A stretch of DNA of 64,000 nt, from NCBI RefSeq assembly GCF_006965485.1, contig NZ_CP041360.1, positions 1,922,001 through 1,986,000 of the forward strand. The letters are read 5' to 3'. A program made the translations under genes and the position numbers. Position 1 is the stretch's first letter; each line of letters opens with the position of its first letter. Shown here piece by piece: positions 29,185-46,100 of this stretch. The notes under the pieces are model-generated. The model did not search any database. It had not been told where the DNA came from and worked only from the letters and a program-made list of their open reading frames with translations. The DNA comes from Spirosoma sp. KCTC 42546. GTDB lineage: Bacteria > Bacteroidota > Bacteroidia > Cytophagales > Spirosomataceae.

Positions 29185-30618
29185 ATGGCTACGTCGTTAT
29201 TTGAATCAGCTACAACGAATCGCTCGCTTATTCTGGCAGGAGGAGGTGTGCGGTTAGCGTATCATGCGGGTGTGTTAAAAGCACTGGAAGAGTCCGCTAT
29301 TTCCTTTCGGCATGTGGATGGTACATCGGGCGGGATTTTCAACACCGCCATGCTCGCGGCTGGCCTCGATCCCGAGGAAATCTGTGCCCGTTGGCGGCAG
29401 TTGAATGTCATGAATTTTGTTTCCCTGACACCCGCTGAAAATTACCTGCGACTGACCCGCATGACGGCTATGGGCGATGCCGATGGTATTCGGAAACAGG
29501 TGTTTCCAACCCTGGGCATTGATGTGGCAAAAATCAGGCAAAATCGACGGTTTAGGGCAACATTTAATGTGTGCAATTTCTCGCACAAAACCGTCGAAAA
29601 CATTGCTGATACCCAGATTAATGAGGATTTCCTGATTGCAGGCATGTCACTGCCCATTTTTATGCCCGCCCTCCAGATTAATAGCGATTGGTATACCGAT
29701 GCAGTCTGGATTAAAGACGCCAACCTGATGGACGCAGTGCGGGGAGGAGCCGAGGAAATCTGGCTGGTGTACTGCATTGGCAATTCGCGGGAGTACCTCG
29801 ATGGCTCATTTGTGCAATACGTTCACATGATCGAGATGAGTGCTGCGGGCGGTTTACTGGCTGAGTTTGACTGGATCACACAAATCAATGAGCAGATCCG
29901 GCAGGGTAACTCACCTTATGGACAAACGAAACCCATTCGCTTACAAGTCATCAAACCCACGTTTCCATTGCCGCTCGACCCCGATTTATTTCTGAAGCAT
30001 ATTGATGTTCGAGCACTGATCAATATGGGTTATGCGGATACCAAAGCCTATCTGGAGCATGTACCGGCAGCGGGCGTACCCTGCGATTATAAAGCGGCCC
30101 AAATGCAAGAACCGGGGATTTCGATGCAATTCATGGGCCAGTTTAAGGGCGAAACGTTCTGGGAGGGTGCGCGTGTACCCGTGAAGTTATATGCGCTCTT
30201 CGATCTGCGCGAACCCGTAGAAGGATCATTTCAGGTAGGCATGTTCTGCTCGTTAGCGTTGGGGTTAGCAGGGTCTGAAGTGTCAACGTATAAGCATAGC
30301 GTTAGTTTACTGGCTACTAACGGAGAAAGGCAACTGCTACTAACTGGTAATTTCTGTAACGACGGGCAAATTCATACAATCAGGGCTACGTTCCCGCTGA
30401 GCAGTGCACTGGATTTCAGGCTGGGGTTAGACCTTAAAAGGATGATCCTGCAACTCGATGAAAACGAGCGTTCGACTCTAGTTCAATCGACCCGAAGCCG
30501 CCTGAAATCGTCCTGGAACAGCCATTTGTACGTAACGGCAGGTTGGCAACGAAGGTGGGCAATGAAAAACAAACTGTTGCGCCTGTTTTACAACTCCACC
30601 AACGTTGCTGAGGTATAG
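29185..30618 (+). CDS. patatin-like phospholipase
   Basis: A 477-residue cytoplasmic-looking lipase. The N terminus has LILAGGGVRLAYHAGVLKAL, the oxyanion region (G-G-G-x-R), then HVDGTSGGIFNTA with GTSGG containing the nucleophile Ser of the GxSxG elbow. The partner Asp is plausibly in YTDAVW near residue 172, where patatins have DGG/DGA. The C-terminal 160 residues look like a beta-rich accessory domain. It follows the lipid-oxidation operon by 134 bp on the same strand and may hydrolyse the same membrane lipids. Confidence 0.8.
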   Translation: MATSLFESATTNRSLILAGGGVRLAYHAGVLKALEESAISFRHVDGTSGGIFNTAMLAAGLDPEEICARWRQLNVMNFVSLTPAENYLRLTRMTAMGDADGIRKQVFPTLGIDVAKIRQNRRFRATFNVCNFSHKTVENIADTQINEDFLIAGMSLPIFMPALQINSDWYTDAVWIKDANLMDAVRGGAEEIWLVYCIGNSREYLDGSFVQYVHMIEMSAAGGLLAEFDWITQINEQIRQGNSPYGQTKPIRLQVIKPTFPLPLDPDLFLKHIDVRALINMGYADTKAYLEHVPAAGVPCDYKAAQMQEPGISMQFMGQFKGETFWEGARVPVKLYALFDLREPVEGSFQVGMFCSLALGLAGSEVSTYKHSVSLLATNGERQLLLTGNFCNDGQIHTIRATFPLSSALDFRLGLDLKRMILQLDENERSTLVQSTRSRLKSSWNSHLYVTAGWQRRWAMKNKLLRLFYNSTNVAEV

Positions 30619-32497: not shown

Positions 32498-34339
32498 GTG
32501 CCTAAATCCACTACACCCTTTCCTGCCTGGGCGCCAACTTCTCCGCCTACAGAAGACAAAGACAAACTCAATTTCGAGCGGCAGAAGATGGAGCCCTGGT
32601 ACGATCCCGGGCAGTTGGCCCGTACAGCCCTGCGCACCATACTTTCCTCATTATTCGGTACTTATGCCGATAAACGGGAAATGCAGGCCTGTCTCAAAGC
32701 CAGCGAACCCTATATAAAGCTGGCCGACAAAGATGAAGTCTGGATCGATTATATTTCTGACCTGGGGTCTGGGTTCAACTCAACCTATAGCCTGGCCTAT
32801 CTGCTTGGTAAAGAAGAACTGCATGTGGCCGGGCATGATACCAAGCGGGGGAATTTATTGATTATGGGGGGCGATGAAGTATACCCAACTCCCAGCTGGG
32901 AACAGTACGCCAATCGACTCATTGGGCCTTATCGATCAGCCAAATCGTTTATTTCCGAACCCAATGCACCCCGCCTGTTCGCTATTCCGGGTAATCATGA
33001 CTGGTATGACGGCCTGACATCATTTCTGAAAGTATTTTGTCAGCAGCGTTGGATCGGAGCCTGGAAAACAGAGCAGACCCGTAGTTATTTCGCGATTCAA
33101 TTACCGCATAATTGGTGGCTCTGGGGCATCGACATCCAGCTTTCAGAAGATATTGATCTGCCCCAGCAGGAGTTTTTTGAGCGGGTTAACCGCAATTTTA
33201 CCAAACCGGGTGATAAGGTAATTCTGTGCACGGCAGAGCCTTCGTGGGTCTATCAGGCCTATAAAAGACGTGATAAATCGTTTCGGAATCTGGAATGGTT
33301 CTGCGAACGATACATTACCGATCCGAACCTTAGAGCGAAGCCTCCTCACCCAACCGATGGCCCGCTGAAAAAATTAACCCTGCCGGTCACGATTACGGGC
33401 GATATGCACCATTACAGCAGTTATTTCTACCCACCTACCGATCCTGATAATCCAACAGTACCGCCCTTGGAATGGAAAATTACGGCTGGGGGAGGAGGGG
33501 CATTCATGCACCCAACGCATCACCTTCCGGTTGACTTTAAGGAGGATGAAGATTTGCTCTATGGACAGCGTAAGCCTAAAGAATACCAAAGTAAAGCGTT
33601 CTACCCTGATCAAAAGAAGAGTCGGCGACTGGTGCTGGGGAATCTGTTGTTTCTGATCAAAAACCCCTGGTTTACCAGCCTGATGGGAGCACTTTACCTG
33701 TTCTTTACCTGGATGATGGTTAGTGCCGAGTTGTTTAAGCCAGCGTATGATCAATCCGATCCCTGGGTAGCTCTCTGCCGGGATTTAAGTGGTCTTATCA
33801 GGCACCCATTCCTGCTGTTAGTTACTATTCTGATAGGTGCTGGTTTTATCAGCTTTGCCGACCGAAGTCATAAACGAAATCGGTGGGCAGCTAATGCGGG
33901 CGGGTTGCTTCATGGGGTCATACAGGTTGTTTCGTTACTGATGGGTACCTGGTTTATTGATCATTTCTGCAAGTTGATTCCAACGGACTGGGAACGCATT
34001 TCTGTTCAGTCGCTGGCATTGCTTCTGATCGGTGGCCTGATTGGTGGGCTGGTTATGGGAGTGTATCTGTTAATTGCGAATGGGATTTTCGGGACCCACG
34101 AAACCGAGGCCTTTTCATCGCTACGTATTCAGGATTACAAGAATTTTTTGCGTTTGCACCTGACGAAAGACCACCTGACAATTTACCCGGTCAATGTTGA
34201 ACAGGTTCCCCGACAGTGGACGTATCAGGCCAATATGACGAACGGTGAACCCTGGTTCGAACCGGATAGCCCTTTACATGCCGGACTGATTGAACCTCCC
34301 ATTATAATTGATAATCTAATGTCGAAAAAAACGGCTTAA
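32498..34339 (+). CDS. membrane-bound metallophosphoesterase
   Basis: A 613-residue protein. The N-terminal half is a calcineurin-like phosphoesterase: ISDLGSGF (first metal-site region, lacking the usual DxH), GGDEVYP, GNHDWYDG and GDMHHYSSYF. The C-terminal part has four hydrophobic helices (about 383-403, 430-450, 468-490, 505-530) and a soluble tail. It uses a GTG start. Substrate unknown. The preceding lipoprotein and following protease cluster lie on the same strand, so it may be a membrane-associated partner of that system. Possible terminator at 34403-34447. Confidence 0.82.
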   Translation: MPKSTTPFPAWAPTSPPTEDKDKLNFERQKMEPWYDPGQLARTALRTILSSLFGTYADKREMQACLKASEPYIKLADKDEVWIDYISDLGSGFNSTYSLAYLLGKEELHVAGHDTKRGNLLIMGGDEVYPTPSWEQYANRLIGPYRSAKSFISEPNAPRLFAIPGNHDWYDGLTSFLKVFCQQRWIGAWKTEQTRSYFAIQLPHNWWLWGIDIQLSEDIDLPQQEFFERVNRNFTKPGDKVILCTAEPSWVYQAYKRRDKSFRNLEWFCERYITDPNLRAKPPHPTDGPLKKLTLPVTITGDMHHYSSYFYPPTDPDNPTVPPLEWKITAGGGGAFMHPTHHLPVDFKEDEDLLYGQRKPKEYQSKAFYPDQKKSRRLVLGNLLFLIKNPWFTSLMGALYLFFTWMMVSAELFKPAYDQSDPWVALCRDLSGLIRHPFLLLVTILIGAGFISFADRSHKRNRWAANAGGLLHGVIQVVSLLMGTWFIDHFCKLIPTDWERISVQSLALLLIGGLIGGLVMGVYLLIANGIFGTHETEAFSSLRIQDYKNFLRLHLTKDHLTIYPVNVEQVPRQWTYQANMTNGEPWFEPDSPLHAGLIEPPIIIDNLMSKKTA

Positions 34340-34592: not shown

Positions 34593-34622
34593 TGTCGACA
34601 CACGTTTATACGTGTGTCGACA
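34593..34622. repeat. 12-bp stem-loop in AT-rich spacer
   Basis: TGTCGACACACG (34593-34604) and CGTGTGTCGACA (34611-34622) are exact reverse complements with a six-base loop. The 720-bp interval 34340-35062 is AT-rich and holds no convincing gene; this hairpin, the palindrome at 34642 and the -7 element at 34681 are its only visible features. Confidence 0.7.
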
Positions 34623-35062: not shown

Positions 35063-36040
35063 ATGGCAACAACTAAAAAAACACCTAAAGCCACCGGCGA
35101 TGATACGCCTGTATCGAATAAGACGGAAGAAGCGGCACCAGCGGTTGATAAGAATACACAACCGCCCTCAGAAGGGATAAATCCTCAGACAGTACCACCT
35201 ACTAAAGAGGGAATTGAAACCGTTGAGGGGTTTAACTTTCGGGAAACCGATGCGGAATCTGAGGCCGAGATGGTGGCCGTAGCGGATCTCCCCCAATTGC
35301 GGGATATTGGCGAAGCCTCGTTTGGCCCTCCACCAGCTATTCCTGCCCCAACAGGTGAACAGGCCGAAAATGTACATGGGGACGATAACCGGGTGAAAAT
35401 TACAACTACGGCTAGTTATCCATGGCGCGCTATTGCTTCGTTGCTTATTACGGCTGCCGATAATTCAATGTGGATTGGAACGGGTTGGTTTATTGGCCCA
35501 CATACCTTAATGACAGCTGGACATGTCGTTTTTATTAAGAATAGTGGCGTACCTGGTCGGGATGGCTGGGTCAAGAAAATTCAGGTAATGCCCGGTCGGG
35601 ATGGCAGTGCAATGCCTTATGGGTCCGTGGTTAGTACCGACTTTCACTCTGTTACGGGCTGGACAAACAATGGCGACGAAAACTATGATTATGGCGCCAT
35701 TATTATTCCTACAGACATGGGTAAGACAACCGGCTGGTTTGGCTTTGGCGTCTACTCGGATTCCGATCTGAAAAATGCCGTAGGAAATATCTCGGGTTAT
35801 CCGGGCGATAAGCCGACAGGAACCCAATGGTACGACGCACGACGGATAGACTCGGTGAACAGCTGGAAGGTGTTCTACGATATTGATACGGCAGGTGGGC
35901 AAAGTGGAAGTGCTGTATACCGAATTAGAAATGGAAGTCGCATGGCTATCGCTATTCACGCTTATGGGGGCGTAACCACAAATTCAGGTACGCGGATAGG
36001 ACCGAATGTTTACAAGAATATGTTGGCCTGGAAGGCTTAA
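35063..36040 (+). CDS. trypsin-like serine protease
   Basis: A 325-residue protein. Residues 1-95 are a low-complexity, acidic/Pro-rich N-terminal extension without a signal peptide. The catalytic domain has H154 (LMTAGHVVF), D209 (NYDYGAIIIP) and S281 (GGQSGSAVY), an intact triad in the order and spacing of S1-family (V8/glutamyl-endopeptidase-like) enzymes. The lack of a signal peptide suggests an intracellular protease. First gene of the run to 44625; the next gene is 72 bp downstream. Members of such runs are often the effector of a conflict system. Confidence 0.87.
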   Translation: MATTKKTPKATGDDTPVSNKTEEAAPAVDKNTQPPSEGINPQTVPPTKEGIETVEGFNFRETDAESEAEMVAVADLPQLRDIGEASFGPPPAIPAPTGEQAENVHGDDNRVKITTTASYPWRAIASLLITAADNSMWIGTGWFIGPHTLMTAGHVVFIKNSGVPGRDGWVKKIQVMPGRDGSAMPYGSVVSTDFHSVTGWTNNGDENYDYGAIIIPTDMGKTTGWFGFGVYSDSDLKNAVGNISGYPGDKPTGTQWYDARRIDSVNSWKVFYDIDTAGGQSGSAVYRIRNGSRMAIAIHAYGGVTTNSGTRIGPNVYKNMLAWKA

Positions 36041-36112
36041 TAAATTCTACTTTATACCCACAGCTAGCAATACATAATAGCCTGTGGGTTTGCGAGCTGG
36101 GCACTAGTTTCT

Positions 36113-36382
36113 ATGAATACGAACCCGAGTGTTATTACGGGTAGCGTCTGTACCGCCGATAAACAGCCTGTTGCAGAGGCAAGGGTCTACTTTGTGGCTG
36201 GCCCGGTAGCCTTACCCGATATCACGACGCTGACCGATTCGGCAGGGAAATTTTCGTTATCAGCTCCCGTAGACGGGACCTATCAGATTGGCTGTACAGT
36301 CGATGGATTTGAACCGGCTACTGCTTCTGTAGCGATAACGAAGGGTGAGAACGCGCAACTTGAGATTAGCCTGAAGCGGTAA
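36113..36382 (+). CDS. stand-alone carboxypeptidase-regulatory-like (beta-sandwich) domain
   Basis: An 89-residue protein consisting of one beta-sandwich: VITGSVCTADKQPVAEARVYF, then TTLTDSAGKFSLSAP and YQIGCTVDGFEPATASVAI. It is the CarboxypepD_reg/Ig-like fold usually found at the N terminus of secreted proteins, here with no signal peptide and nothing attached. It sits between two protease genes (gaps 72 and 68 bp) and probably works as a binding or adaptor subunit. Confidence 0.78.
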   Translation: MNTNPSVITGSVCTADKQPVAEARVYFVAGPVALPDITTLTDSAGKFSLSAPVDGTYQIGCTVDGFEPATASVAITKGENAQLEISLKR

Positions 36383-36450
36383 CGCCGATTGATGTTAGCG
36401 TGGTTCAGGCCAACGAATAAAACACCAGAAAACTCCCTAACAAAACGAAT

Positions 36451-37692
36451 ATGTCCCCTCCTGATCAAGGAACTATCCCCAATCCTGACGCTACCCAAGG
36501 GCCAGGTGATGATCTGCTGGTCCATTATAAACGGCTCCTTCTAGCTCGTGAGAATCAGGCCAGGAGTACCGAATCGGCGGGTGGTGACTCTGTGAACCCC
36601 GACCTGAGCAATCCGGCAATTCGGGACCGACTCGATCAAACAGCGGCCGATTGGAATCAGATCATTAAAGAACACCTGGGCGATAAACCCAGACTTCGTC
36701 GTATTGTTAACCAGATTGTTGCCAATGCCGATGAAGCCCTCCGGGTGGTTGAGAATAATGATGTTGAGAAGGTTCTGCAAAAGCCCGAAATTCTTCAGAA
36801 TCTGGAGTCGATTGTGCGAACCGATGGCTCCCGACCTTCCTTTATGATTCGTCAGGGGAAAGTTGATAAATCGACCAGTCCTTTGGGGGACTGGGGTGCC
36901 ACCCTCGATGGCAGTGCCGATTCACTCAAAGATGCCATTGCCTGCGTTGGGCGAATCAATTTGCCGGGTTCTCCCGGTGGGTTTATCGGCACCGGTTTTT
37001 TGATTCAGGCCAACCTGATTCTGACCAACCGGCATGTGCTGCAGGATATTGCCCGGCAACAACCGAATGGTGATTGGGTCTTTCGGTCGGGGGCTGGTAT
37101 TGATTTTGGGATGGAATTTCGGGGGTTGGGGTCGGTCAATCCGCGCACCTTCAAACGGGTTGTTTTTACCGGTTCCCAGGAAATTGATCCTAATTTTATT
37201 GATCACACCAAATTAGATCTGGCCCTGATCGAACTGGACCCCGTTGGTGCTGATCACATTCCGCGGCATATACTGGGGGTTGATGTGGCTCCTGACTGGC
37301 CTGATAGTTTGCCCACCTTATTTACCATTGGGTATCCGGCTAACGACCCACGTGTGCCCCCTACCTTGCTGGAGGAGTTGTTCAAGAGTACGTTTGGCTG
37401 TAAGCGCCTGGCGCCGGGTCTGCTCATGCCGTTGCCCGCGAGTGCCCTGCCCACTCCGTTTCGGGTTGGTCATGATGCCACTACGCTGGGGGGCAACTCA
37501 GGCTCGGTGGTGCTGGTGGCTGGACGGGAGCATCTTTCGGCTGGCTTACACTATGCAGGCAAGAGCATGGAACCGCGTATCAACTCGGCGCATGTGCTGG
37601 GTCGGGTGTTAGCTCAAACCGATGGCCGTTCCTCAAAAACGTTGCTGGAGCATCTGACCGATTTTGAGGTAAAGCTCGTAGACCGGATTTGA
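36451..37692 (+). CDS. trypsin-like protease with alpha-helical N-terminal domain
   Basis: A 413-residue protein. Residues about 20-140 are helical (LRRIVNQIVANADEALRVVE and neighbours) and look like a death-fold-like effector-associated domain, an inference from pattern only. The protease domain has H195 (ILTNRHVLQ), D256 (KLDLALIEL) and S350 (LGGNSGSVV), a complete S1-type triad. No signal peptide. The gap to the next gene is 30 bp. A long same-strand frame at 37244 is a shadow of this gene. Confidence 0.85.
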   Translation: MSPPDQGTIPNPDATQGPGDDLLVHYKRLLLARENQARSTESAGGDSVNPDLSNPAIRDRLDQTAADWNQIIKEHLGDKPRLRRIVNQIVANADEALRVVENNDVEKVLQKPEILQNLESIVRTDGSRPSFMIRQGKVDKSTSPLGDWGATLDGSADSLKDAIACVGRINLPGSPGGFIGTGFLIQANLILTNRHVLQDIARQQPNGDWVFRSGAGIDFGMEFRGLGSVNPRTFKRVVFTGSQEIDPNFIDHTKLDLALIELDPVGADHIPRHILGVDVAPDWPDSLPTLFTIGYPANDPRVPPTLLEELFKSTFGCKRLAPGLLMPLPASALPTPFRVGHDATTLGGNSGSVVLVAGREHLSAGLHYAGKSMEPRINSAHVLGRVLAQTDGRSSKTLLEHLTDFEVKLVDRI

Positions 37693-37722
37693 AAACAACA
37701 AACTAAATGGCTTTTCTGAACC

Positions 37723-39597
37723 ATGCCAACCATCGAGCAGATTCTTGCCGCTTTACGCACGTCGCGTCCAACGTTTACAAACCTGTTTGAAGAAGCTCAA
37801 ACTGATTTGCCAAGCCAAAACCGCCTGGCATTTGAGGCCGTTACATTGGTTGCCGATGATACCGAAGCGTACGTGAAAGCGCTCCAGTATGCCCAGGCGA
37901 ATAACTTTCTGCAACCACTTCTGGAGCGACTGATTAATGAGCGTCAGGAGGATGGGAGCCTTACCGTACTGTTGGCCAATCAAACCAACGCGGGAGCAGC
38001 TACCCTACAGGCAATGGTCAATGAAGCACAGGGATTTGTTCAGCCGGAGATACTATGCCGGGGTATCAATGATGGAAAACATTGGACAGGTCAAATCACT
38101 GTGACCCTGCCTGCTGGTGGTCGTGCCAACGGAACATGTATTTTGATTGGGCCCCGCCTGGTACTAACAGCCTGGCATGTCGTACACGCACTATTCAGGA
38201 ATAATAATGGTACCTGGGAGCCCGATCCAACCATTAATGGTACCAACCGGATACAAGTCGATTTTGATAATTATCTGTTACGAGTCGGGCAGAATGGTGG
38301 GTTGGGCGGTAGTGCTGGCGCTATTAAAGTTTTTGGGCACGCTACAGACTGGTGTGTAAAATTCAGTCCATGCCATCAGGATGAGCTGAATGATCGGTTG
38401 CCTGCCGACGCCAAAGATTTAGCTGATTTCTGGGATTATGCCATTATCCGACTGGACGCTACACCAGGCATTGGACGGCGTTTTGCCCACCTCGATGCGC
38501 AGGCATTTGTACCCGCTCCCACGGATAATTGTATACTGCTTCAATACCCAGCCGCCCAAACACTCAGGCTTGGCTTAGGCGCTATTGGTCGCTTTACGCC
38601 ACCTAATCCAGAGGTGTCCCGGTTGCGATTCCTGCATCAGATCAATACATTGCCCGGTTCATCAGGCGGAGGGTGTTACGATCGCAGTTTTGTTCTTTTC
38701 GGATTGCATCAGGGAGTTTGGAGTCAGGGAGAAGGCCTGAACAGGGGCATACCCATGGTAAAAATCTATGAACACATTAATGTAAGCGGATTACCCGCGC
38801 CTGATCCAACTGAAAATCCATACTGGGAGCTAACTACCGATACTAAAAAAGAGCCAATTATTGGGCTCGATCAGTTTCAGGCTGTTTGTTGGCGGCTGGC
38901 AATGGTAGGTGGGCCGAGGCTACTCGCCATTACCGGGGCAAATGGCAGCGGAAAAACCTTCTGTGTTCGGGTTCTTTCACAGATGCTTCCGGATGGGGGT
39001 AACCTCAAAATTCGACTGAATGCCGGGCCGGGAGGCATTGGCCAGAAAGATGCCCGTCAGCTTGTTGCCGATATGTGCGCTAATGCCGGCGTAGAGGCCC
39101 CGGTAATACCCGATATGGACCCCAACTCAACGTCAATCGTATGGCTCAAAAATGAGGTGATCCCTGCGCTACTATCGGCACTGGATCGAGCACGTAGAGG
39201 TAATTTAGTCTGGATTCTGTTGACGGATTTGAACAAGGGAACAATTGACGGGTTGCATGCATCCGAATTTTTGTTCCTGTTATATGAGCAGATACTAAAG
39301 GTAGACTGGCTCCGCATCGTGCTCGACGGCGTTAGGGCCGACATTCCTGAGTCACTTAATGACGTTACCGAGCGGTTCAGAATCCAGGAGAAAAGTCAGT
39401 ATGACATTGAAACATACCTCAGGCATTTTTTCAGTACGCTGGATCAATCCTTTGATAGTGAACAGGCTGTACCATTCAGTGCATTCTTAATACAACCCTA
39501 TCAGAACTTGCTCAACAACAATCCTGACAATGCCCTGAAGAATCTGGCGTCTGAAACAAAGCGGTTTAGCGAAGTATTCAGGAAAGCGGATCAATGA
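37723..39597 (+). CDS. trypsin-like protease fused to P-loop ATPase
   Basis: A 624-residue fusion. Residues 1-90 are helical with a FLQPLLERLINERQ pattern, resembling an effector-associated domain. The protease domain follows: H152 (LTAWHVVH), D238 (FWDYAIIRL) and S314 (LPGSSGGGC). After a linker, an ATPase begins at about 385, with a Walker A G405-ANGSGKT-412 and a Walker B-like WILLTD near residue 507. Protease plus NTPase on one chain suggests ATP-gated proteolysis. The following gene is a second, larger NTPase, 28 bp away. Confidence 0.85.
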   Translation: MPTIEQILAALRTSRPTFTNLFEEAQTDLPSQNRLAFEAVTLVADDTEAYVKALQYAQANNFLQPLLERLINERQEDGSLTVLLANQTNAGAATLQAMVNEAQGFVQPEILCRGINDGKHWTGQITVTLPAGGRANGTCILIGPRLVLTAWHVVHALFRNNNGTWEPDPTINGTNRIQVDFDNYLLRVGQNGGLGGSAGAIKVFGHATDWCVKFSPCHQDELNDRLPADAKDLADFWDYAIIRLDATPGIGRRFAHLDAQAFVPAPTDNCILLQYPAAQTLRLGLGAIGRFTPPNPEVSRLRFLHQINTLPGSSGGGCYDRSFVLFGLHQGVWSQGEGLNRGIPMVKIYEHINVSGLPAPDPTENPYWELTTDTKKEPIIGLDQFQAVCWRLAMVGGPRLLAITGANGSGKTFCVRVLSQMLPDGGNLKIRLNAGPGGIGQKDARQLVADMCANAGVEAPVIPDMDPNSTSIVWLKNEVIPALLSALDRARRGNLVWILLTDLNKGTIDGLHASEFLFLLYEQILKVDWLRIVLDGVRADIPESLNDVTERFRIQEKSQYDIETYLRHFFSTLDQSFDSEQAVPFSAFLIQPYQNLLNNNPDNALKNLASETKRFSEVFRKADQ

Positions 39598-39625
39598 AAT
39601 TACGGTACGACAGAAATCAATTTCC

Positions 39626-42600
39626 ATGAAAGATCTGAACGCTTTTGCTCAGCAATTAGCGGCTCGTATGGAGCAGCAATTGGCACGGTCGCCACAATCA
39701 CTGATCAACTCAATTGAGGACGCAGACCCGGAAGCTGATTCGATAACGACCGGACCGCTCGACACCTTGGCGCAATTGACGCAGCAGGCCGAAGAACGGG
39801 CCGCCGTATCGGGCCGGTTTGCTCCGGTCGACCTGGTTGCGTTCATTGGCGATGATTCCATTCGTCAGCAAACGCTAAGTCGGCTGGCGCCTACCTGTAC
39901 CATTGAAACTGTCGATGGAAAGTTGCAATGGCTTCTTGCCCAGAACTACCGAAACGATACGTTGAAAAAACTGGTCAGTTCAGATCGGCTGACAACCGTA
40001 TTGAACGAACCGTTGCCCGCTACCGATTTGTTTGGCGATATGCTCCGAAAGGTTCTGAAGGAAGGCGACAAGCTACCTCTTGTAGATCGTTCGTCGGCTG
40101 ACTTACAGGCCATTAGTGCGGCTACCGATGCCATCAGTGATACGGGTTTGCCCCAGCCCGACCCGGCTCAAATCCGAAATCTACTGCTGAAAGACACGTT
40201 ACTGGCCGATTACGAGATTTTGCTCAAAAACCAGTTTGTTGGCCGGGAAGAGGAGTTGAAAAAACTGGAGCTGTTTGTTTTGCAGGGGAGTGGCTCAGTT
40301 GGCTATTCCGAATGGAGCGGTTTGGGGCTAACGGGCGTTGGCGGAGTGGGGAAATCAACACTGTTGGCCAAGTTTGCCGAAGACGCTGTTGCCCGCAAAC
40401 TAGCGACACTTGTGCTCCTCGACTTTGATCGCCCTGGGATCGATCCCAGAGACCAATACTGGCTTGAGATGGAAATGACCCGGCAGGTTGGCTTGCAGTA
40501 TGCCGATCTTGCTGAACCCTTACGGCAGCTACGAGCCGACTGGCGGCAACAGCGACAATCTGAGTCGGTAGCAAATCCCTATCAGCAATCGTCTAAAAAT
40601 CAATATTTTACGGAATCTGTTGAGGTGAGTCGTGGCTTTCGTAGTATTGTGTCTGAGATGCGGCAGTTGATTCAACAGGCTAATCTGGAGAAGCCGCATA
40701 CAGTAGCCCAGGAACGCCCTTTTCTGCTGGTACTCGACACCTTTGAAGAGGTCATGCAACTGGAACTGGCTGGCAGGGTACTAGACTGGCTATCGGATAT
40801 TGGGAATGCACTCAGACCAATTCCGTTGCGGGTTATTTTTTCGGGCCGATTGTTCGACGACGACCAGACGGAGTTGGGAAGTTGGGGTGTTCGCGATTTT
40901 ATCGAACTTACCGAACTGGACCATAAACAGGCAGAACTGCTTCTGCACAACCTCGGTGTTGCCAAACCGATGGCCAAACGCCTGTCGTACTCTGATCTGT
41001 TTCCACGCCGGCCACTTGAAATACGTTTACTGGCCAAAATAGCTACACGTGAATCGGCGTCCTCTATCGACGAACTGGAAGCCGAAATTCGGCAGGGCGG
41101 TCCAGCGGCCAAAAATCTGTTTACGGGTATTGTTTACAAACGATTACTCCAGCGAATTGACAATAAAGATAAAGTGATTCGCGAACTGGCTTATCCGGGC
41201 CTGGTACTTCGGTACGTTACACCAGCCTTGATTGAACAGGTGCTGGTACCCGCTTTAGACTTAACCCTCATGGACGATCCTGCCGTGGTATTGACTAAAC
41301 TGGCTTCTTACAGTTGGCTGGCTTCGCGCAGAGCCAGTGAAGACCCGCAGGAGGTTTGGCACAGACGCGATTTACGACGATCGGTCCTGCAACTTATTCT
41401 GGCACAGGAACCCGGAAAAGCCCGACGTATTAGTGAACTGGCTGTGAAGTTCTTTGCCGATAAGCCAGAAAAAGAATGGGCTGAGGGAATCTACCATCAA
41501 TTAATCCTCATGCGGGATCACCAGGACGGCGAAACCTTCGAACTGGCCGATCTGAAACAGGCTGGGCCATGGATCAAACTCGATTTAACCGATTTGCCCA
41601 AACCTGCTCAGGTACTGTTTCGGTTTGCAACGGAAGGGCGTGTTCAGTCGGGCGATGTTGACTGTTTACCGAACCGGTACTTAGCGGGGGCGTATCAAAA
41701 AACAGGACGTCGGCTTGTCAACAGCCGGGAATTTACCAAAGCCCTTCAACTGCTCAGGCGAGGGCAAGGTGCCAACATCGCCTATAAACTTCCGAATCCA
41801 ACGCGACCCGATCTGTGGGAAATCGACGTGCTGTTTGCTACAGCCTCCTGGGCAGACCTGCCGGACGCATTGGATAAAACAGTAGTGGTGCCAACAGACG
41901 CTTCGCTGGTTAATTTTGCTAACTGGCTTTACCCGGCTGTGTTGGTGAATCCGGAGTTACGATCCCCCGCAGAAACAGCGCGTCGGTTAGCGGATGCCAC
42001 CCAATCGGAGAAAGCAATGGACGATGTGCTAACGGGATCTGATGCCACACTGGTGGTTAGCTATCTGTCTGTAGGGTTGGTGCTTCAGCAGATAATCGCA
42101 CCATTGACTGCCGATAGTCGTAGGCGTATTGGGCAATTTATTGGGCAGACTGAGCAACAGGCAGTTATTCGCAAATCGGCTCGGCTCTCCCACAAGCTTG
42201 TTTTACTGAGTTTGCTGAGTGATCAGCCTGCTACATCATTTAGTTTGGCTCCCTCCATAGTACGTATCAATTCGGCCTGGTTAAAGCGATTGGCTAAGGC
42301 TAAGTCGACAGGTGACAGAGCCGTAGCGGTGTCACTGGTTCAGTTAACCGAGAATGCATTAGTTACGGGTTTAAAGGGCAAGCAACGGACTGTGCGTCGG
42401 TTATTGCGCACCATTGATGCGCTTTATAAAGAGCGCGAGCAGTGGCAGCAGGTAACCTATCAATTTGCTGATTTTCAAAACGCGGATGAATGTCTGGCTC
42501 TATTTCGAGGCCCCGATTCCGATTTTCGCGACCCGTGTCGATTTGCCCTGTTGGAGGCTTATTCAGACCCGGAATCGCGCCGACAGCTTGGGGCCTTATT

Positions 42601-42856
42601 CAGTTCCATCCTGAATCTGGATCTAATCGACCTTGTCCCCGAAGCATTTGCCGAGTCACTGGCTCCTGATCCCGAACACGGTCTGGAAAGTTATGTCGAA
42701 CTAGTCGACCGTACCTGGCAACTGGGCGAATTGCTTCGGCGAGCGGTAATTCAGCGCCCTCAGACTCCGAAACTGAAGCTGGTTCTGGACGCGTATGAGC
42801 GTTGGGATAAGGCGTTCAGAGAGACTGTTGGTTCTATATACACTACCAAAAATTAA
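39626..42856 (+). CDS. large STAND-type NTPase
   Basis: A 1076-residue protein. The N-terminal 200 residues are helical and carry a WLLAQNYRNDTLKKL stretch similar to effector-associated domains. The NTPase core has Walker A G237-VGGVGKST-245, Walker B FLLVLDTFEE with D371 and E374/E375, and RVIFSGR near residue 400, fitting the STAND/AP-ATPase class. The C-terminal 500 residues look like a helical repeat or sensor region with no hits by eye. STAND proteins commonly act as stress or infection sensors that oligomerise on ATP binding. It is the probable sensor and switch of the six-gene cluster. Confidence 0.83.
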   Translation: MKDLNAFAQQLAARMEQQLARSPQSLINSIEDADPEADSITTGPLDTLAQLTQQAEERAAVSGRFAPVDLVAFIGDDSIRQQTLSRLAPTCTIETVDGKLQWLLAQNYRNDTLKKLVSSDRLTTVLNEPLPATDLFGDMLRKVLKEGDKLPLVDRSSADLQAISAATDAISDTGLPQPDPAQIRNLLLKDTLLADYEILLKNQFVGREEELKKLELFVLQGSGSVGYSEWSGLGLTGVGGVGKSTLLAKFAEDAVARKLATLVLLDFDRPGIDPRDQYWLEMEMTRQVGLQYADLAEPLRQLRADWRQQRQSESVANPYQQSSKNQYFTESVEVSRGFRSIVSEMRQLIQQANLEKPHTVAQERPFLLVLDTFEEVMQLELAGRVLDWLSDIGNALRPIPLRVIFSGRLFDDDQTELGSWGVRDFIELTELDHKQAELLLHNLGVAKPMAKRLSYSDLFPRRPLEIRLLAKIATRESASSIDELEAEIRQGGPAAKNLFTGIVYKRLLQRIDNKDKVIRELAYPGLVLRYVTPALIEQVLVPALDLTLMDDPAVVLTKLASYSWLASRRASEDPQEVWHRRDLRRSVLQLILAQEPGKARRISELAVKFFADKPEKEWAEGIYHQLILMRDHQDGETFELADLKQAGPWIKLDLTDLPKPAQVLFRFATEGRVQSGDVDCLPNRYLAGAYQKTGRRLVNSREFTKALQLLRRGQGANIAYKLPNPTRPDLWEIDVLFATASWADLPDALDKTVVVPTDASLVNFANWLYPAVLVNPELRSPAETARRLADATQSEKAMDDVLTGSDATLVVSYLSVGLVLQQIIAPLTADSRRRIGQFIGQTEQQAVIRKSARLSHKLVLLSLLSDQPATSFSLAPSIVRINSAWLKRLAKAKSTGDRAVAVSLVQLTENALVTGLKGKQRTVRRLLRTIDALYKEREQWQQVTYQFADFQNADECLALFRGPDSDFRDPCRFALLEAYSDPESRRQLGALFSSILNLDLIDLVPEAFAESLAPDPEHGLESYVELVDRTWQLGELLRRAVIQRPQTPKLKLVLDAYERWDKAFRETVGSIYTTKN

Positions 42857-42888
42857 CGGAATTCACTGGAGTCAAACCTAACTAACCT

Positions 42889-44625
42889 ATGAAAACATAT
42901 CGCGGTATCGTGCGCGTTCGTAAGTCTGACATCCTGCTGGATGCCGGGGGAGTGGAAGTCAAACTGGACGGAAACTATGAAGAATTAGCTCCATTGGATG
43001 GGCTACAAACAACAATAGCCGGTGAACAGGAAGGCGCCGTTATTCGGAACGCTACCCCTGCTTCAGAAGCTGAATCGGTTGCGATACAAGATCCATTTGA
43101 GCCGATCATTGCGGCTATCGCCAGCCAGCAAGACAGGCTCAGGACTATTGAGGGCGTATTTGGGGTAAGGCCGGGGATTAGCACCACCAGCAGCGATGAC
43201 GTCGTGAAGCCGGTTATCGTAGTCGTTACGAACCCGGCAGAGACGTTCAATGCCGATGCTGTTCCGTCAACTATTAGTGGTATTCCCGTTGAAATACGCC
43301 CTGCAACGCCCTTAGAGTTGACCGCTGGCTTGTTGCCACTTGCTGCCTGGGCAGACACCGCGGCCGGAGACGTTGCTGAAGCGGTTCCCCCTATTGGCTA
43401 TGTACCACCAAAAACAACGGAGGTCGCTCTTGTTGAAATGGATGTTCATAACATTACCTGCCATGTTGGGCCCGATGCTGGCTGGATAACGCTAAAGCCA
43501 TTTCTGGAGGGCACAACCCGAAGCCTGACCGTTGCCATGTATGAGTTTTATGCGACACATATTATCGACACGGTTACCCGGCTTGGGAAAGAGACTACCG
43601 ATAAACTGAATATGATTTTGCAGGTGAGCGCGAATGATAAACAGATCCAGCAAACACTCAAAGATAGCTGGGGCACCCGGCTGGATTTTGCCAAAGCATC
43701 GGTTTCCGGCCCTAATCGAATTTTTAATAACTCCTATCATACCAAAGTAGCTGTCCGGGATTCAAAATCCTTCTGGTTATCGAGTGGGAACTGGAGCCCC
43801 AACAGTCAGCCAGCCATTCAGCCTGGTAATGAGCAGTCTCTGTTTCGGTTGGGCAATCGGGAATGGCACGTGATTATTGACAATGAGCCAATGGCGCAGA
43901 TGTACGAAAAATTTATCAAGTACGATATGCGCATGGCCCGAAAGGCTGGTGAATCAGAGGTTGCAGCTGTTATGCCCGATTTGCTTATTCCCCAGTCACT
44001 GGATGAGGCCGAAGCTGTTTTCCTGCAGCCGAAACCTTTTTTGCCCAAAACGTTTGCTACCACAGGCGAGCCTGTTCGGGTGAAACCGCTGATGAGCCCG
44101 GATAATTATGCGCCGGAAATTCTGAACCTTATTCAACGGGCGCAGCTTTCGATTTACCTGCAATTCTCCTATATCCGGCAACCCTCTACCGGGGATTTCG
44201 ACGCCATTATTTCGGCGATTGCCGAGAAAATGGCCGCTGGATTGGATGTTCGAATTCTGGTAGGAAGCTCGCAGCAGGCCGACCACTCTGAATTACTGAT
44301 CGGTAAACGAGGCTGGAAACGGGAGCAGTTTCGGATGCAAAGCAGCAAACTCCATAATAAAGGCGTACTGGTAGACGGGAATATTGCGGTGGTGGGCAGC
44401 AACAACTGGTCGTCTGATGGAACCCAATTTAACCGGGATACCAGTCTCGTTTTCTTTTCGCGCCCTATTGCCCAATATTATACCGAAGTGTTTCTCTTCG
44501 ACTGGACTAATCTGTCGAGACCTATTAACAAAGGAACGGGCATTACACCTGTAATCGCTCCTGAAAGCGGTCCGACCCCACTGGGCATGGTGCGAATTCC
44601 CTGGCAGGCCTGGTTTGATGAATAA
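42889..44625 (+). CDS. phospholipase-D-family protein with two HKD motifs and N-terminal extension
   Basis: A 578-residue protein with two complete HxKx4D motifs: H284-K286-D291 (YHTKVAVRD) and H489-K491-D496 (LHNKGVLVD), each followed by an SGNW/GSNNW-like motif. These form one active site in PLD-family nucleases and phospholipases. The first 190 residues form a separate module with KPVIVVVTN and ISGIPVEI, the latter pattern (IP..i.GiPV.v) being familiar from propeptide-like regions of bacterial trypsin-like proteins. Last gene of the cluster; likely the nuclease or lipase effector. Confidence 0.87.
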   Translation: MKTYRGIVRVRKSDILLDAGGVEVKLDGNYEELAPLDGLQTTIAGEQEGAVIRNATPASEAESVAIQDPFEPIIAAIASQQDRLRTIEGVFGVRPGISTTSSDDVVKPVIVVVTNPAETFNADAVPSTISGIPVEIRPATPLELTAGLLPLAAWADTAAGDVAEAVPPIGYVPPKTTEVALVEMDVHNITCHVGPDAGWITLKPFLEGTTRSLTVAMYEFYATHIIDTVTRLGKETTDKLNMILQVSANDKQIQQTLKDSWGTRLDFAKASVSGPNRIFNNSYHTKVAVRDSKSFWLSSGNWSPNSQPAIQPGNEQSLFRLGNREWHVIIDNEPMAQMYEKFIKYDMRMARKAGESEVAAVMPDLLIPQSLDEAEAVFLQPKPFLPKTFATTGEPVRVKPLMSPDNYAPEILNLIQRAQLSIYLQFSYIRQPSTGDFDAIISAIAEKMAAGLDVRILVGSSQQADHSELLIGKRGWKREQFRMQSSKLHNKGVLVDGNIAVVGSNNWSSDGTQFNRDTSLVFFSRPIAQYYTEVFLFDWTNLSRPINKGTGITPVIAPESGPTPLGMVRIPWQAWFDE

Positions 44626-44828: not shown

Positions 44829-46100
44829 CTACTGGACCGCGTTATCCCAGGATTTACCTGGGGCCAGTGTTAATTTTTTGTCGGACAACACCTCTATCTT
44901 TCCCTGAATGGTACCCGACTTTAGATCGGCTACCCATTTTTCGCTCAGTAAAGGTCCCATATTGTCAACATAATCCAGTGTAATCACTTCATTATCAATA
45001 TGGCAGATAACGTAGCCGTTATAACCCAGATCTGTCTTGTTTACAGTTTTTTGTTTTCGTTTATAGAAGCCAACCAAGGCTTCATACCCATTCTGTTTCG
45101 TGCACAGCTCAAAGTTTTTCGATTGCACTTCAACGGGTGTTCCTCCATGGCCAATGCAGCGCCCGTAAACAGACAGGCCACTTTTCTCCTGTATTTTTCC
45201 GTAAATAGCCAGTTTGTGTTCGTGCCCCCAAAGCCATAAAATCGTTCGGTCGGGGCCAAGTAAGGACGCCAATTGTTGAGCTGGCTTTGGGTATTCGGAT
45301 TCTTTACAAAATGCCGAGATAAACTGGTGATGGGAAAAAATGAGCAGGCCTCGCTTGTCGGATTTATCGCCCAGTTTTACGGTTTTTTCGAGCCACTCCA
45401 TTTGTTCGTCATCAAAGTGACAATCAGGGGAAAATCCAGGAAGGAATTCAATGATGGGGCGACCCGTAGAATGGTAGCCAGTGTCCAGCCCGAGGATTCG
45501 CCAATGGTCATTTTGCAGGCAGAAATACCCCGCTTTTTGCCCTGTATACGCACCAGATTCATTGCGTAAGCCTAATGTGGGTAGCAGGCGCTCAAAAAAA
45601 GCATCACCCCGTGCGTACATTTCGTGGTTTCCCAGGACGGCAAAACTTCCGGTAGTTCCTCGTACCCAGGGTGAGCCCTGTTCCACAAAATTGCTGTTTA
45701 TTTCAGAAGGGGCACCCACAAAGTAAGTGTCGCCGACATGAACCGTGTAGTCCGGCTCCTGTTTTTTAATTTCCAGGGCTATATCAAATGATTCAGGGGG
45801 GTCTGTAGCCCAATCGCTGGTTACAGCCAGTTTGGTTACCTTATCCGTTGCCAGTTCATAAATTCCTGTTTCTGGCAACGGATAAGAGGGGTAAGGGAAT
45901 TTTCGGCCGAACCTGCTTTTTATGTAATGGGAGAGCCAGGACCATAACGATTTTGTGAAAAAATCGCCGATGTTGTGTCCCGGAGTCTTCGCAATTTCTG
46001 TTTGGAGGTGATTGACCAGTTCCGAACTAGACTTGTCAAGGTAAGCTTCACTTGACCTTTCCGGGCTTTTAGTTATCTCTTCACTTTGAAAATAGGCCAT
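44829..46100 (-). CDS. metallophosphoesterase, convergent with cluster
   Basis: A 423-residue calcineurin-like phosphoesterase. Motifs in order: AVTSDWATD, HVGDTYF (GD), LGNHEMY (GNHE), FSHHQF and WGHEHKLAIYG (GHEH), so the metal site appears intact. No signal peptide. It is on the opposite strand, facing the PLD gene across a 203-bp spacer with only a weak hairpin around 44660-44690. The metallophosphoesterase before the cluster differs in its first motif and has membrane helices, so the two are not simple duplicates. Confidence 0.85.
   Translation of the reverse strand: MAYFQSEEITKSPERSSEAYLDKSSSELVNHLQTEIAKTPGHNIGDFFTKSLWSWLSHYIKSRFGRKFPYPSYPLPETGIYELATDKVTKLAVTSDWATDPPESFDIALEIKKQEPDYTVHVGDTYFVGAPSEINSNFVEQGSPWVRGTTGSFAVLGNHEMYARGDAFFERLLPTLGLRNESGAYTGQKAGYFCLQNDHWRILGLDTGYHSTGRPIIEFLPGFSPDCHFDDEQMEWLEKTVKLGDKSDKRGLLIFSHHQFISAFCKESEYPKPAQQLASLLGPDRTILWLWGHEHKLAIYGKIQEKSGLSVYGRCIGHGGTPVEVQSKNFELCTKQNGYEALVGFYKRKQKTVNKTDLGYNGYVICHIDNEVITLDYVDNMGPLLSEKWVADLKSGTIQGKIEVLSDKKLTLAPGKSWDNAVQ

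Follow-up and report, generated by a model that had tools for sequence, protein, structure and literature searches.

The closest described systems with which the gene cluster considered here can be compared are the bacterial CARD-NLR operons, in particular lypABC of Caulobacter. LypA combines a helical bundle (residues 1-80), a trypsin domain (residues 85-305, with S262) and an ATPase without Walker residues; LypB is a protein of 1027 residues with K230, the N-terminal domain of which binds the LypA CARD; and LypC unites trypsin and endonuclease in 662 residues, with S296 and H471 (PMC13236601). LypABC lyses cells and is needed for the release of the gene transfer agent (GTA), and the killing effectors reported for CARD-NLR systems include gasdermins, phospholipases and endonucleases (PMC13236601). 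Two further groups are pertinent: System 3 of Kaur et al. 2020, in which NucA-trypsin(-S8) combinations occur in some cases with STAND and bDLD2 (PMC7159879), and the protease-effector pair of Hachiman, AVAST, Lamassu and DRT, made up of a metallo-beta-lactamase (MBL)-fold nuclease with a protease fused to a core gene (PMC12799240). Here we describe six adjoining genes of Spirosoma sp. KCTC 42546 which look like a bacterial relative of the animal inflammasomes, wherein a sensor would switch on proteases. With a rough probability of 0.65, we take them to be a CARD-NLR-type operon that probably acts in abortive infection and would kill by means of an enzyme of the phospholipase D (PLD) superfamily, served by an additional protease, T1.

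The cluster lies in a stretch of 64,000 nucleotides (assembly GCF_006965485.1, contig NZ_CP041360.1, positions 1,922,001 to 1,986,000 of the forward strand), henceforth the window, of a genome that consists of one 8.66-Mb contig. An original prediction made from the sequence alone had singled out these adjoining genes as an apparently undescribed conflict system with several effector types. All six open reading frames (ORFs) are confirmed on the + strand at 35063-44625 of the window, with successive intergenic gaps of 72, 68, 30, 28 and 32 bp, within the range of 28-72 bp that it had given. In order, they code for T1, an 89-residue CarboxypepD_reg protein, T2, T3, a STAND-type NTPase and a two-HKD PLD protein, with the following features in window coordinates:

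35063..36040, + strand: T1, relative of V8-like serine endopeptidases, 325 residues, H154/D209/S281 (phmmer match to 1p3c; residues by motif)
35063..35368, + strand: T1 residues 1-102, putative prosegment ending in Glu (nine-sequence alignment; prosegment predicted from the family)
36113..36382, + strand: lone CarboxypepD_reg-like beta-sandwich, 89 residues (Pfam E 4.7e-13; domain E 2.1e-37 in the homologue of locus L008)
36451..37692, + strand: T2, trypsin-like protease, 413 residues, H195/S350 (Pfam; PADLOC PDLC03010, E 1.3e-26, residues 33-373)
37723..39597, + strand: T3, helical bundle, trypsin and P-loop ATPase, 624 residues (Pfam; AlphaFold2 model, mean pLDDT 86.9)
37723..37992, + strand: T3 residues 1-90, predicted six-helix bundle, candidate CARD-like adaptor (model; homologue N termini)
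38086..38787, + strand: T3 residues 122-355, trypsin-like domain, H152/D238/S314 (Pfam, model, homologue alignment)
38869..39594, + strand: T3 residues 383-624, P-loop ATPase domain, Walker A K411 (Pfam below cut-off, model, homologue alignment)
39626..42856, + strand: STAND-type NTPase, 1076 residues, AAA_16 at residues 203-375, K243 (Pfam; motif)
42889..44625, + strand: two-HKD PLD-superfamily protein, 578 residues (Pfam; model, mean pLDDT 89.9; PDB matches)
42889..43059, + strand: PLD residues 1-57, N-terminal beta domain (model)
43099..43398, + strand: PLD residues 71-170, alpha/beta part preceding the catalytic domain (model)

Inspection of the individual proteins bears out the anatomy that had been proposed for them. 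The Pfam Trypsin_2 match is above the cut-off in T2 and T3 and below it in T1 (E 3.4e-4); T1 matches the solved glutamyl endopeptidase 1p3c (phmmer E 1.3e-17), its residues 104-311 aligning with chain residues 2-200. T2, with H195 and S350 recognized by motif, shares homology with the trypsin portion of proteins of the trypsin-NUC1 and S8-trypsin types. In T3, the triad of H152, D238 and S314 is kept in all 42 homologues found among the 7996 candidates scored, and the Walker A lysine K411 in 40 of these; all Pfam AAA matches fall below the cut-off, but the AlphaFold2 model together with K411 upholds the fusion of a protease to a P-loop ATPase. The same model places six helices in residues 4-87, in agreement with the helical N terminus anticipated for T3, the one modelled of the three so predicted, and this region is conserved among the homologues. 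The NTPase has an AAA_16 match above the cut-off (E 2.3e-8), a Walker A motif with K243, and long N- and C-terminal parts. The lone beta-sandwich and the two-HKD protein, the latter with Pfam PLDc_2 in two stretches, were likewise correctly recognized, and a crude hydropathy scan revealed no strong signal-peptide-like start on T1, T2 or T3 (T3 being highest, at 2.0 over 10 residues), as had been claimed for the proteases. The residues named in the original prediction (S281 of T1, S314 of T3, K243 of the NTPase and H284 of the PLD) belong to four proteins, S350 of T2 having gone unnamed.

The coupling of a large STAND-type NTPase to proteases is supported, as is the conservation of gene order, which had been suggested as a check. 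Relatives of the NTPase were recovered from 6 of 200 genomes of the family, its own included, and additionally from four loci of named genomes, 247 proteins and 18 plasmid records; 14 loci from these searches were compared (L008-L015 and L021-L026, L denoting loci). In eight of these, all outside the window, the NTPase relative spans most of its length, and seven (L008-L014) show the order T2-T3-NTPase, the exception being L021 on a Hymenobacter plasmid, with the order T3-NTPase-T2 and broken frames. This order is conserved beyond chance, and in Spirosoma spitsbergense (L008), of the same genus, genes 1-6 recur, inclusive of T1, the 89-residue protein and the PLD. Proteobacterial plasmids carry related arrangements: S8-T2, T3, NTPase and NUC1 in L022; T3, NTPase and T2-NUC1 in L024; and S8-T2, a trypsin and an NTPase relative in L025. 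The T3 search added L055 (S8-T2, trypsin, AAA) and L056 (S8-T2 and a T3-like protein, with no whole NTPase annotated), and for 16 of the 41 non-self T3 homologues a homologue of the NTPase, from the 120 listed, is apparently present in the same genome, as judged by eye.

An ordinary housekeeping cluster for protein degradation or repair, with enzymes unlinked to immunity, might be considered at this point, since HtrA/Deg as well as V8-type proteases are found among the fold matches of the T3 trypsin domain, and T1 relatives occur without the PLD in six of the eight family genomes that have T1. We regard it as the least probable of the explanations weighed here: a conserved order combined with patchy presence, the occurrence on plasmids, and the variable effector position and NTPase-effector fusions described below all speak against it.

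In its plan, the core of T2, T3 and the NTPase follows LypABC: T3, with its helical N-terminal domain, trypsin and ATPase, corresponds to LypA, the NLR-like NTPase to LypB, and the second trypsin, T2, to the protease half of LypC. The plasmid locus L024 resembles lypABC in order, protein sizes and residue positions, with proteins of 603, 1031 and 662 residues, the first without a G-x4-GK motif and the last with S293 and H470; these proteins match the T2, T3 and NTPase of the window with E-values of 8e-19, 8e-18 and 7e-34 (3e-33 for the NTPase in a second comparison). Because both the core and L024 resemble LypABC, the core has been filed as CARD-NLR-type and is best read as an operon of this known class, the CARD fold of T3 being a candidate assignment. 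Hence, "undescribed" was too strong a term, the more so as NucA-trypsin(-S8) systems, some of them with STAND, appear in PMC7159879. That System 3 shares with the present loci the combinations of trypsin, NucA/NUC1, S8 and STAND seen in L022 and L024, but the terms "PLD" and "phospholipase D" have no occurrence in its main text (PMC7159879). The window differs from LypABC in that T3 keeps its Walker A motif (K411), in that the PLD is a separate gene, and in the presence of the extra V8-like T1 and the lone CarboxypepD_reg protein. The newer part of the cluster is its two ends, T1 and the PLD.

The coupling of effectors to STAND NTPases through effector-associated domains (EADs), which the original prediction had favored, would offer a different organization, in which small helical adaptors bring several independent effectors to a single STAND hub without any cascade. 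The conserved helical region at the N terminus of T3 would suit such an adaptor. Further, EAD1 proteins are found among the distant NTPase relatives (P0111, P0116, P0118 and P0119, P denoting proteins), an EAD1 gene adjoins the distant NTPase relative of L023, and clusters with the same PLD use EAD5. However, the profile searches that confirmed AAA_16 in the NTPase returned no EAD match in any of the six window proteins at E<=1, and among 22 homologous T3 N termini just one matched EAD1 (E 0.007), although an EAD of an undescribed kind may be present. As the plan of T2, T3 and the NTPase is moreover like that of LypABC, we consider this organization unlikely, and favor the CARD-NLR-type operon.

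The gene after the NTPase varies between relatives. It is the PLD in the window and in L008, and a NUC1 gene in L012, L013 and L022, identified from the annotation or from similarity to PF01223 proteins; NUC1 is fused to the C terminus of the NTPase in P0014, P0061, P0080 and P0088, as is T2 in P0049, P0065, P0068 and P0086. The PLD of the window occupies the place where relatives carry a NUC1 nuclease.

The PLD itself belongs to a large family with recurrent links to peptidases. Of 7997 candidates scored, 585 were homologues of the PLD at E<=0.001, as against 42 of 7996 for T3, and the PLD is therefore used more widely than this operon. Both HKD motifs (H284/K286/D291 and H489/K491/D496) are kept in 57 of 57 aligned homologues, these being drawn from 120 listed. 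Residues 71-175 are matched by 114 of the 120, and residues 1-60 by 63, the N-terminal beta domain being missing in many. PLD proteins of the DISARM DrmC and NucT types share the superfamily and the HKD motifs; the PLD scores far under the NCBIfam cut-offs for both, at 34.3 against 133 bits (DrmC) and 37.9 against 297 (NucT), and no other DISARM match was found among the ten proteins scanned with PADLOC.

Relatives of the PLD are fused to a peptidase, or lie at most three same-strand genes from one, in 23 of 27 loci: the window, L008, L015, L039-L044 and L067-L069, and on plasmids L047-L051, L053 and L059-L063. The 27 are the search returns with duplicates merged and a second site in the Mesorhizobium record left out; L060 is counted via an M48 peptidase, the third gene upstream, its nearest trypsin match being below the Pfam cut-off, and L062 via CHAT proteins. 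The loci are not independent of each other, since they include two sets of relatives, one made up of L047, L048, L049 and L063 and the other of L039-L041. The four misses comprise L045 at a contig edge, L046 with a 58-residue fragment and unannotated neighbors, L052 with an S8 peptidase on the other strand, and L054. In a rough control, namely three 50-kb stretches from three of 13 plasmids with product names read by eye, none of 142 features was named as trypsin-like, S8, serine protease, caspase or CHAT; the stretches contain a single "peptidase", an ImmA/IrrE metallo-endopeptidase and a Mov34 protein. In L039-L043, from Spirosomaceae, trypsin and PLD domains are joined in single proteins of 927-956 residues.

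Some side observations pertain to the same family. The rhizobial plasmids code for a conserved protein of 84-85 residues between the S8 peptidase and the PLD (L047 6600-6854, L048 6251-6508 and L049 6305-6562), which, as a guess by eye, might be a peptidase inhibitor or a propeptide-like protein. In two rhizobial plasmid clusters, L051 and L059, a trypsin-PLD fusion occurs together with a caspase-family gene; L051 also has an M12 peptidase, and L059 a protease like T1. Patatin-annotated genes occur near the PLD in L050 and L062, and in the window a patatin-like phospholipase gene (29185-30618, Pfam E 8.4e-21) lies about 4.4 kb upstream of T1.

Turning to the other end of the cluster, a leader of about 102 residues precedes the segment of T1 that aligns with the mature glutamyl endopeptidases. 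Residue 102 is a glutamate, and a glutamate is present at this position in nine of nine aligned T1 sequences; the alignment covers nine of 14 T1 relatives, with L084 and L087-L090 left out, and in the weaker relatives L087, L088 and L089 the glutamate is, by eye, absent at the end of the leader. The family relationship suggests that the leader may be removed by Glu-specific cleavage, perhaps by T1 itself.

T1 directly adjoins the PLD in three Chitinophaga-group genomes (L067-L069). In L068 and L069, T1 and the PLD are followed by an AAA protein, a STAND protein and an EAD5-trypsin (by Pfam in L068 and by similarity in L069); in L067 a further trypsin follows the PLD, and the adjoining trypsin-STAND gene is on the opposite strand. 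The NTPases of these three loci align locally with that of the window from residue 178 on, and their N-terminal parts therefore differ from its own. A T1 relative is also found beside the trypsin-PLD fusion of L059. Among 79 genomes of the genus group of L011, the PLD is present in three and a strong T1 in the same three, the chance of identical three-genome sets being 1/C(79,3) = 1.3e-5. Against such a pairing, four T1 relatives with 42-48% identity have no query protein nearby, one of them being on a 6-kb contig.

We accordingly propose that T1 and the PLD form a protease-PLD effector pair common to several sensor platforms, which occurs with at least one platform other than that of the window (EAD5-trypsin/AAA/STAND) and perhaps with a second (trypsin-STAND on the opposite strand). 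More tentatively, at somewhat less than even odds, the PLD and a cytosolic V8-like zymogen protease would be a mobile, protease-activated killing pair taken up by two or three unlike NLR-type platforms, the PLD being elsewhere fused to trypsin or paired with subtilases. It would add to the MBL nuclease-protease pairs a second class of protease-activated effector pair, which in this operon would end a cascade of three trypsin-fold proteases. The MBL pairs likewise show one protease-effector pair across different immune platforms (PMC12799240), but in the window the effector is a two-HKD PLD and the V8-like protease has its own gene; no MBL family is among the matches of the six window proteins at E<=1. 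The literature compared also took in PMC8195603 and PMC12409349. A PLD-protease immune pair, or a CARD-NLR operon with a phospholipase so arranged, was not found in titles and abstract openings, most subscription papers being outside this scope. DefenseFinder has a CARD-NLR phospholipase subtype, and a variant with PLD or another lipase may therefore already be catalogued.

These features can be brought together in a possible cascade from sensor to proteases. The NTPase would sense an infection signal and oligomerize with ATP, whereupon its N-terminal region would recruit the helical bundle of T3, as the N-terminal domain of LypB binds the CARD of LypA. Crowding would activate the trypsin domain of T3, and active T3 could in turn activate T2 and free T1 from its leader. 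The PLD would be the next target, acted on by T1, T2 or both, and its two-HKD domain might attack membrane lipid or nucleic acid and thereby stop the cell. The same machinery could instead have been put to other use, with the PLD as a lysis enzyme, given that LypABC, the closest published operon compared by architecture, is needed for GTA release (PMC13236601). The patchy distribution of the NTPase in the family genomes fits defense genes as well, and we judge this alternative to be improbable, more so than the EAD-coupled organization.

Several observations weigh against a CARD-NLR-type operon ending in a T1-served PLD. With respect to the core, the N terminus of T3 is without any PDB sequence match, so that its identity as a CARD is unsupported by sequence; the fold comparison of T3, over residues 103-360, was taken up by the trypsin part and gave no CARD. 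Further, no CARD is among the matches of three distant T3-like proteins; in L015, L023 and L026 the NTPases are all of a more distant kind, and a close T2 is lacking; and S278 and K207 of L024 differ from S262 of LypA and K230 of LypB. With respect to the effector, the endonuclease of LypABC is dispensable for lysis (PMC13236601). No PLD or NUC1 was recognized beside the core in L009, L010 and L011, and the core can therefore do without either; the neighbors of the trypsin-PLD fusions are ordinary where looked up (L039, L042 and L043); and the PLD scores weakly as DISARM DrmC (PADLOC E 1.4e-10). As for the pairing, T1 relatives often occur without the PLD; T1 is present in eight of the 200 family genomes and the PLD in ten, with both in only two; two of five cases in the genus group of L011 are weak T1s without the PLD; L015 has the PLD without T1; and no PLD is annotated in L091-L093, the three plasmid T1 loci compared besides Mesorhizobium, out of 27 records with matches. 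Taken as a whole, the original prediction is partly supported in its interpretation and confirmed as an observation.

As regards the surroundings, the roughly 720 bp 5' of T1 contain no ORF of at least 80 residues, while the PLD is followed by a gene for a metallophosphoesterase that is read from the opposite strand. Two calcineurin-like phosphoesterase genes (Pfam) flank the operon at 32498-34339 and 44829-46100; comparison with related loci returned no homologue of the one or the other. A perfect 12-bp inverted repeat with a 4-base loop, at 34594-34621, lies about 440 bp upstream of T1, with no match in 100 shuffles of the window; its arm is in no other compared locus except L038, which is the same place. 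It is possibly an operator or a terminator.

The T1-PLD neighborhood, together with the frequent peptidase partners of the PLD family, offers a concrete candidate. If the CARD-NLR-type operon with a PLD served by T1 is the correct reading, a PLD can take the place of a pore at the end of inflammasome-like proteolysis in bacteria. One effector pair could then serve different sensors, which would make sensor-effector coupling directly testable.

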